Positions 33,203 to 34,263 of a stretch of DNA of 64,000 bases are shown one piece after another. Under the pieces are notes generated by a model. The model had not been told where the DNA came from and made no database searches. It worked only from the letters and a program-made list of their open reading frames with translations. The stretch lies in the NCBI RefSeq assembly GCF_003688415.1, contig NZ_REFJ01000002.1, positions 372,001 to 436,000 of the forward strand, read 5' to 3'. Within the stretch, counting starts at the first letter, position 1; every line of letters begins with the position of its first letter. A program made the position numbers and the translations under genes. The stretch comes from Umboniibacter marinipuniceus. Lineage in GTDB: Bacteria; Pseudomonadota; Gammaproteobacteria; Pseudomonadales; DSM-25080.

Positions 33203-33412
33203 TTAAGCAGGTACTACACTTTCTGCTTGAGGGCCTTTGGCGCCGTTAGTAACCGTCATAGTTACTGGCTGTCCCTCGGTAAGTGTACGACGACCTGTCC
33301 CTTCGATCGAGCTGTAGTGTACGAAAACATCTTTCTCGCCCTCACGCTCGATAAAACCAAATCCCTTTTCATCATTAAACCACTTAACAGTGCCTGTTAG
33401 CTGCTCCGCCAT
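33203..33412 (-). CDS. CspA-family cold-shock protein
   Basis: A 69-residue single cold-shock domain protein with RNP1 (KGFGFIE) and RNP2 (VFVHYSS). It binds single-stranded RNA and DNA and can act as an RNA chaperone or antiterminator. Start [13 protein letters not shown] is canonical. Whether it is cold-induced cannot be told. A terminator follows. Confidence 0.95.
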
Positions 33413-33723
33413 ACTCTTGATATCCTTATTTTTTTTGCCCTAAAACGGGTGTTCTTAAATCCATGGGCACCTACCCAAATCTCTGTAGGTAATTACTACT
33501 TACATTAATAAAAAGACTATCTAAAAAATGGTGCTTAAACAACAATTCGAAACGAAATTATGTGCGAAACAAGAAAAAACACTCCAAATTGTGCAGATAA
33601 TATACAACCCGTAATAGCAAACTGTCATGAAGCTGTAACAAAGCGGTAACGAAGTTGTCACGATCAGTACGGCGGCGCGAATTCCCGTTACAATGTAGTA
33701 ACCAAATAGCGAGGTACACGACT
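33413..33723. other. Divergent control region between csp and the DUF1415 gene
   Basis: 311 bp without a gene. The left part should be the leader of the cold-shock gene. The right part holds four PhoB-type half-sites (33622-33661) and a possible -10 hexamer TACAAT at 33689-33694 reading toward the DUF1415 gene. Confidence 0.6.
33622..33661 (+). promoter_or_regulatory. Tandem PhoB box (four 11-bp-spaced half-sites)
   Basis: CTGTCAT, CTGTAAC, CGGTAAC and TTGTCAC occur in direct orientation with an exact 11-bp period, separated by GAAG, AAAG and GAAG. This is the architecture of a Pho box (7-bp half-sites, 4-bp spacers) repeated twice. It reads toward the DUF1415 gene, 63 bp upstream of its start codon. 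The gap of 27 bp to the TACAAT hexamer is longer than in classical Pho promoters. Confidence 0.65.
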
Positions 33724-34263
33724 GTGAAAACACCACTTGAGGCCACTAAATGCTGGTTAGAAGACGCCGTTATCGGACATAATTTCTGCCCGTTCGCACG
33801 CCGAGAATTTGTCGCCAACAGAATTAAGTTTACCGTTGTCGAAACAAAGGTAGGTCTAGAAGAAGCGCTAGAGCGTTTAGTGGATGAACTGCGTGACTTG
33901 GATAATAGCGACGTAGAAACCACCTTGTTAGTCTTCGCAGCGGACTTCAAACACTTCGATGACTTTATTGATCTAATGGAGTTAGGCGATCAGCTCATTG
34001 ATGCACTTGAGTACCGAGGTACCTATCAGCTTGCTCACTTCCACCCTATGTACCTCTTTGATGGAGAGGAGCCCGACTCGGCTAGTCACTACACTAACCG
34101 CGCACCCTATCCAACATTACATCTTCTTCGCGAAGCAAGCTTAGCTCGCGTTTTGAAGGATAAAACGGAAAGTGACGACATCGTTGCTACGAATATCGCC
34201 ACCTGCGAACGCCTCGGTAACGCGTTGTTACAAAATGCACTTCATCGCTACAGGGATAGCTAA
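33724..34263 (+). CDS. DUF1415 family protein
   Basis: A 179-residue cytosolic protein matching DUF1415: CPFARRE near residue 22, VFAADFKHFDDFIDLMELGD and QLAHFHPMYLFDGEE, then NRAPYPTLHLLREASL. His and Asp/Glu residues in the last motifs hint at a catalytic or metal site, but the family has no assigned function. The GTG at 33724 follows GAGG and gives the conserved N-terminus. The upstream PhoB-type sites suggest phosphate control. Confidence 0.85.
   Translation: MKTPLEATKCWLEDAVIGHNFCPFARREFVANRIKFTVVETKVGLEEALERLVDELRDLDNSDVETTLLVFAADFKHFDDFIDLMELGDQLIDALEYRGTYQLAHFHPMYLFDGEEPDSASHYTNRAPYPTLHLLREASLARVLKDKTESDDIVATNIATCERLGNALLQNALHRYRDS

Follow-up and report, generated by a model that had tools for sequence, protein, structure and literature searches.

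A four-half-site PhoB-type array between the divergent csp and DUF1415 genes of Umboniibacter marinipuniceus, likely a recent operator in an unusual position

The csp-DUF1415 intergenic region

In the window, i.e., the whole 64,000-nucleotide stretch of Umboniibacter marinipuniceus DNA that was analysed, a cold-shock protein gene (csp) and a gene of the DUF1415 family are divergently oriented, and the intergenic region that separates them carries four PhoB-like half-sites directed towards DUF1415, flanked by predicted promoter elements for both genes:

33203..33412, minus strand: csp, cold-shock protein gene (69 aa; PF00313), divergent from DUF1415
33514..33542, minus strand: P2, a second candidate promoter for csp (TTGTTT-17-TAGTCT), which the congener conserves and which lies nearer the Rfam cspA 5' end
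33628-33623 (-35, ATGACA) and 33599..33604 (-10, TATATT), minus strand: csp promoter P1 predicted by promoter scoring, spacer 18
33622..33628, plus strand: PhoB half-site 1, CTGTCAT, from sequence and matrix
33633..33639, plus strand: PhoB half-site 2, CTGTAAC, preceded by the spacer GAAG
33644..33650, plus strand: PhoB half-site 3, CGGTAAC, preceded by the spacer AAAG, the weakest of the four
33655..33661, plus strand: PhoB half-site 4, TTGTCAC, preceded by the spacer GAAG
33689..33694, plus strand: TACAAT, -10 of the DUF1415 promoter, within a block conserved in the congener; predicted transcription start at about 33701
33711..33714, plus strand: DUF1415 ribosome-binding site GAGG, from the sequence
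33724..34263, plus strand: DUF1415 gene (GTG start, 179 aa; PF07209, E=1.5e-54), whose product has a CPFA motif with Cys22

Read directly from the sequence, the half-sites lie exactly where the earlier note had placed them and form the array CTGTCAT-gaag-CTGTAAC-aaag-CGGTAAC-gaag-TTGTCAC (33622-33661). As in a pho box, the units are 7 bp long, match CTGTCAT, and follow one another with an exact 11-bp period, half-site 3 being weakened by CGG where CTG is expected; the architecture of two adjacent PhoB dimers, also proposed in that note, fits the sequence. In a PhoB matrix scan, which had been suggested as a check, the array scored 34.8 with a half-site matrix made from known E. coli sites, against 3.5 at the next non-overlapping place in the window and 13.3 in the best of 20 shuffled windows, and it is among the best PhoB sites of the genome. 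With an own-genus matrix, built from the phoB, pstS, and porin sites of the same genus, the match has p ~8e-12 per position, and about 4e-5 to 5e-5 such matches are expected per genome under a simple model that presupposes independent half-sites. An origin of the array by 11-bp tandem duplication would make the match less surprising than this expectation implies, and would leave PhoB still able to bind it.

PhoB and its sites in the genome and in the order

PhoB is encoded in the genome (TIGR02154, 317.7 bits vs the curated cut-off of 296.2); its DNA-binding domain aligns without gaps to that of E. coli PhoB in 1GXP, a structure of the protein bound to DNA, and its recognition region 'NVYVE-RTVDVHIRRLRKAL' is almost identical to the E. 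coli one. The three other full-length OmpR-type regulators that were found are PmrA/heavy-metal-like and sortase-system regulators, not PhoB. The motif YTGTMAY-N4-YTGTMAY occurs without mismatch four times in the 2.69 Mb genome, specifically before phoB, a PstS-like gene, a porin gene, and DUF1415; the sites at phoB, pstS, and porin recur with the same spacing in the congener G002, and these known Pho genes share the sequence grammar of the array. The 40-bp array is very likely bound by PhoB. A second, weaker quad array of this genome (L050, G000:C1:609671-609710), CTGTCACaaggCTGACAGatagCTGTCACctcaCTGTCAG, is followed by an inverted copy, CTGTGACAGTGAGGTGTCAC, and could represent a palindromic element instead of a binding site for PhoB.

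Quad arrays are present in 17 of the 57 genomes of the order, while the reversed control pattern is found in none (0/57). Nine of the genes downstream of such arrays were examined and comprise four of the PstS type, two porins, one PhoD, one GspD-like secretin, and one unassigned. The arrays before pstS, porin, and phoD genes of the order (L036, L041, L044, L045, L047, L054) likewise consist of four half-sites with an 11-bp period; they differ from the DUF1415 array in that they precede known phosphate genes, and a -10-like hexamer located 10 bp past the last half-site in four of five order-level quad arrays (pstS, porin) is absent at DUF1415. Longer runs were also observed: in the congener G002, five PhoB-like half-sites with an 11-bp period (L051, G002:C1:52606-52656) precede a gene that resembles a TonB-dependent receptor, and in another genome about six half-sites in a run (L046, G046:C13:297255-297327) precede a GspD-like gene of type II secretion, which suggests phosphate control of secretion in that genome.

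The DUF1415 promoter and its spacing from the array

The -10 element TACAAT sits in the block GAATTCCCGTTA(C/T)AATG, which is kept in the congener G002 although its surroundings have diverged; the -35 of the promoter is poor. The earlier note had remarked that the candidate -10 lies farther away than in classical Pho promoters, and the measured distance bears this out, with 27 bp in place of 10 bp. The reference set of 11 Pho promoters was made up of those of phoB, pstS, and porin in two species and of five quad arrays; in ten of them, a positive-scoring -10 hexamer follows the last half-site at a gap of exactly 10 bp, the only gap at which the mean -10 score of the set is positive, whereas at DUF1415 the hexamer at this gap is GCGGCG and TACAAT is encountered 17 bp off, at a gap of 27 bp. 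A hidden -10 at 10 bp was sought from half-site 4 by scoring and from half-sites 2 and 3 by eye, and none was found. The layout of a classical PhoB-activated sigma-70 promoter, in which the -10 is about 10 bp past the last half-site and the box replaces the -35, is thus absent here. Relative to the predicted start, the array extends from about -79 to -40, of which the proximal dimer takes up -57 to -40 and the distal dimer -79 to -62.

Compared with the pho box of the E. coli type (a pair of 7-bp half-sites repeating every 11 bp, with boxes in tandem at pstS), the half-site sequence, register, tandem layout, gene-ward orientation, and cognate PhoB are all alike; in contrast, the array is 27 bp rather than 10 bp from the -10 and is not conserved, and the promoter retains its own poor -35 region. 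The one precedent found for its position is the pdtA promoter of P. aeruginosa (pdtA/phdA, PhoB + sigma-VreI), which needs both halves of its pho box, at -40/-45 and -50/-56, for expression and uses an alternative sigma factor (PMC4971064). There, the pho box immediately precedes the -35 and thereby matches the proximal dimer of the array in position. The -10/-35 elements of that promoter are of a non-sigma-70 kind, whereas the DUF1415 -10 is sigma-70-like, and DUF1415 has two dimer sites. For E. coli, a strict pho box-to-promoter spacing has been argued (PMC10294691).

Conservation of the site and of the gene order

The order VTT gene - csp - DUF1415 is retained in the congeners G002 (DUF1415 85% identical) and G001 (48%), and the array is absent in both. 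In G002, a single TTGTCAG is left where half-site 1 stands, and the DUF1415 promoter is present without the array. The csp leader (33413-33559) is about 80-100% identical to that of the congener across nearly 150 bp. No convincing PhoB site was found upstream of other DUF1415 orthologues in the 62 regions scanned; a site at -386 (L032) scored high, but it is distant from the gene and its backwards reading also scores high (15.4 vs 19.9), and it was not counted. The array is so far found only in this species, among the congeners and orthologues scanned.

A box conserved upstream of orthologues, as a conserved Pho regulon gene would have, is therefore not observed, and DUF1415 as a conserved Pho target was rejected. 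The conservation check put forward in the earlier note, which yields no site in close relatives, counts against a claim at the level of the family and not against a species-specific operator. Its proposal that DUF1415 belongs to the phosphate regulon accordingly holds in one part, since a PhoB-type site ranking among the best of the genome is present, and lacks support in the other: with the array missing from the congeners and from the orthologue regions scanned, neither general regulon membership of the gene nor the inclusion of DUF1415 as a family is borne out.

The DUF1415 protein

DUF6875 is weakly matched by 9 of 24 DUF1415 members (best 5e-5), one of which exceeds the DUF6875 cut-off (27.5 vs 24.5 bits), and hhalign aligns the two families (84%) with the invariant CPF on CPF. 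The predicted DUF1415 structure (pLDDT 83) has its best PDB match in AglA, with a probability of 0.98 but E=0.05. Compared directly, DUF1415 and YqcI/YcgG gave no significant match. AglA, an arginine hydroxylase that DUF1415 resembles by fold, is an enzyme whose heme has a cysteine as its axial ligand (PMC12866846), and heme binding has been reported for DUF6875 proteins (PMC13307353). From these profile and model comparisons, DUF1415 looks like a remote relative of the thiolate-heme DUF6875/AglA proteins, and the invariant Cys22 of the CPFA motif is a candidate heme-thiolate ligand. A heme role is plausible because of the DUF6875/AglA resemblance, the CPF alignment, and the reported heme binding. 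A literature search on DUF1415 function returned nothing relevant.

Regulatory interpretation

The array is most likely a recently acquired, off-position PhoB operator that acts on DUF1415, csp, or both. In vivo occupancy by PhoB, the start points of transcription, and the sign of regulation are inferred, and we lean towards an operator for two tandem PhoB dimers that would activate DUF1415 from upstream and cover the -35 of P1. This species would have gained the operator recently, in the space separating two divergent promoters that are older and conserved; PhoB~P, bound from about -79 to -40 and just upstream of the poor DUF1415 -35, would activate the gene from this upstream position, as at P. 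aeruginosa pdtA, with no classical -35 replacement, while the same occupancy would mask the -35 of the csp promoter P1. The absence of the array in congeners and of a convincing site in the other orthologue regions scanned, the broken 10-bp rule, the strict spacing argued and the many inert PhoB sites reported for E. coli (PMC10294691), the alternative sigma factor of pdtA, and the G002 promoter that lacks the array argue against this explanation.

On the csp side, the complement of half-site 1, ATGACA, is the predicted -35 of P1, which the outermost half-site overlaps on the other strand, and the best-scoring minus-strand promoter takes the TGTCA element as its -35 in both species (ATGACA-18-TATATT here, CTGACA-16-TACGAT in G002). 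Half-site 1 may thus be of older date, as an element of a csp promoter, and half-sites 2-4 later additions in this lineage. This overlap, together with the position-dependent repression that PhoB can exert (PMC10294691), as in the virulence cascade of V. cholerae (PMC4415409), would also suit csp as the regulated gene and DUF1415 as a bystander: occupancy of half-site 1 would block sigma-70 at the P1 -35 and lower the cold-shock protein under phosphate starvation. We consider this unlikely; one P1-like promoter site is within the shuffle expectation (0.6 +/- 0.8), and the closer, perfectly conserved P2 and the 5' end at 33513 of a match to the Rfam cspA thermoregulator that falls below threshold (36.7 bits, E=9e-8) suggest a possible csp start further downstream than P1. 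The literature search likewise gave no relevant result on the control of csp by PhoB.

Equally improbable is a recently formed, inert site that PhoB binds with no gene being regulated. The lineage restriction and the wrong spacing would be accounted for in this way, and many PhoB sites of E. coli are inert, though reported there as intragenic (PMC10294691), but drift alone is unlikely to have placed four good half-sites in the right register within a short intergenic stretch, immediately before a promoter. A two-sided switch is more doubtful still: here, the PhoB operator would have grown from the csp -35 by 11-bp repeats, and phosphate starvation would turn csp off and DUF1415, taken as an unrecognised small thiolate-heme enzyme, on, the latter through a sigma-70 promoter whose -35 lies entirely downstream of the PhoB dimers. 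Lastly, repeats unrelated to PhoB, either left by an 11-bp tandem duplication through chance or recognised by a different regulator of the OmpR family, agree with the 3.2-copy 11-bp array that Tandem Repeats Finder detects at the site and with a self-similarity that, taken alone (29/42), is no higher than the shuffle maxima. However, the PhoB match is far past chance, the other full-length OmpR-family regulators found are of the kinds described above, and the other such sites of the genome are at Pho genes, all of which makes this reading very improbable.

Under the preferred reading, the off-position PhoB operator may activate DUF1415 from its uncommon place, repress csp, do both, or do neither. 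Strict spacing between the pho box and the promoter core is regarded as a requirement for activation by PhoB, and a high-quality four-half-site operator displaced by 17 bp, with rule-obeying controls in the same genome, offers a clean natural test of this requirement. Moreover, the array is a natural test of how new PhoB sites emerge between divergent genes, and DUF1415, a family of unknown function that is probably related to the newly described thiolate-heme enzymes, gains in phosphate a condition under which it can be tested.
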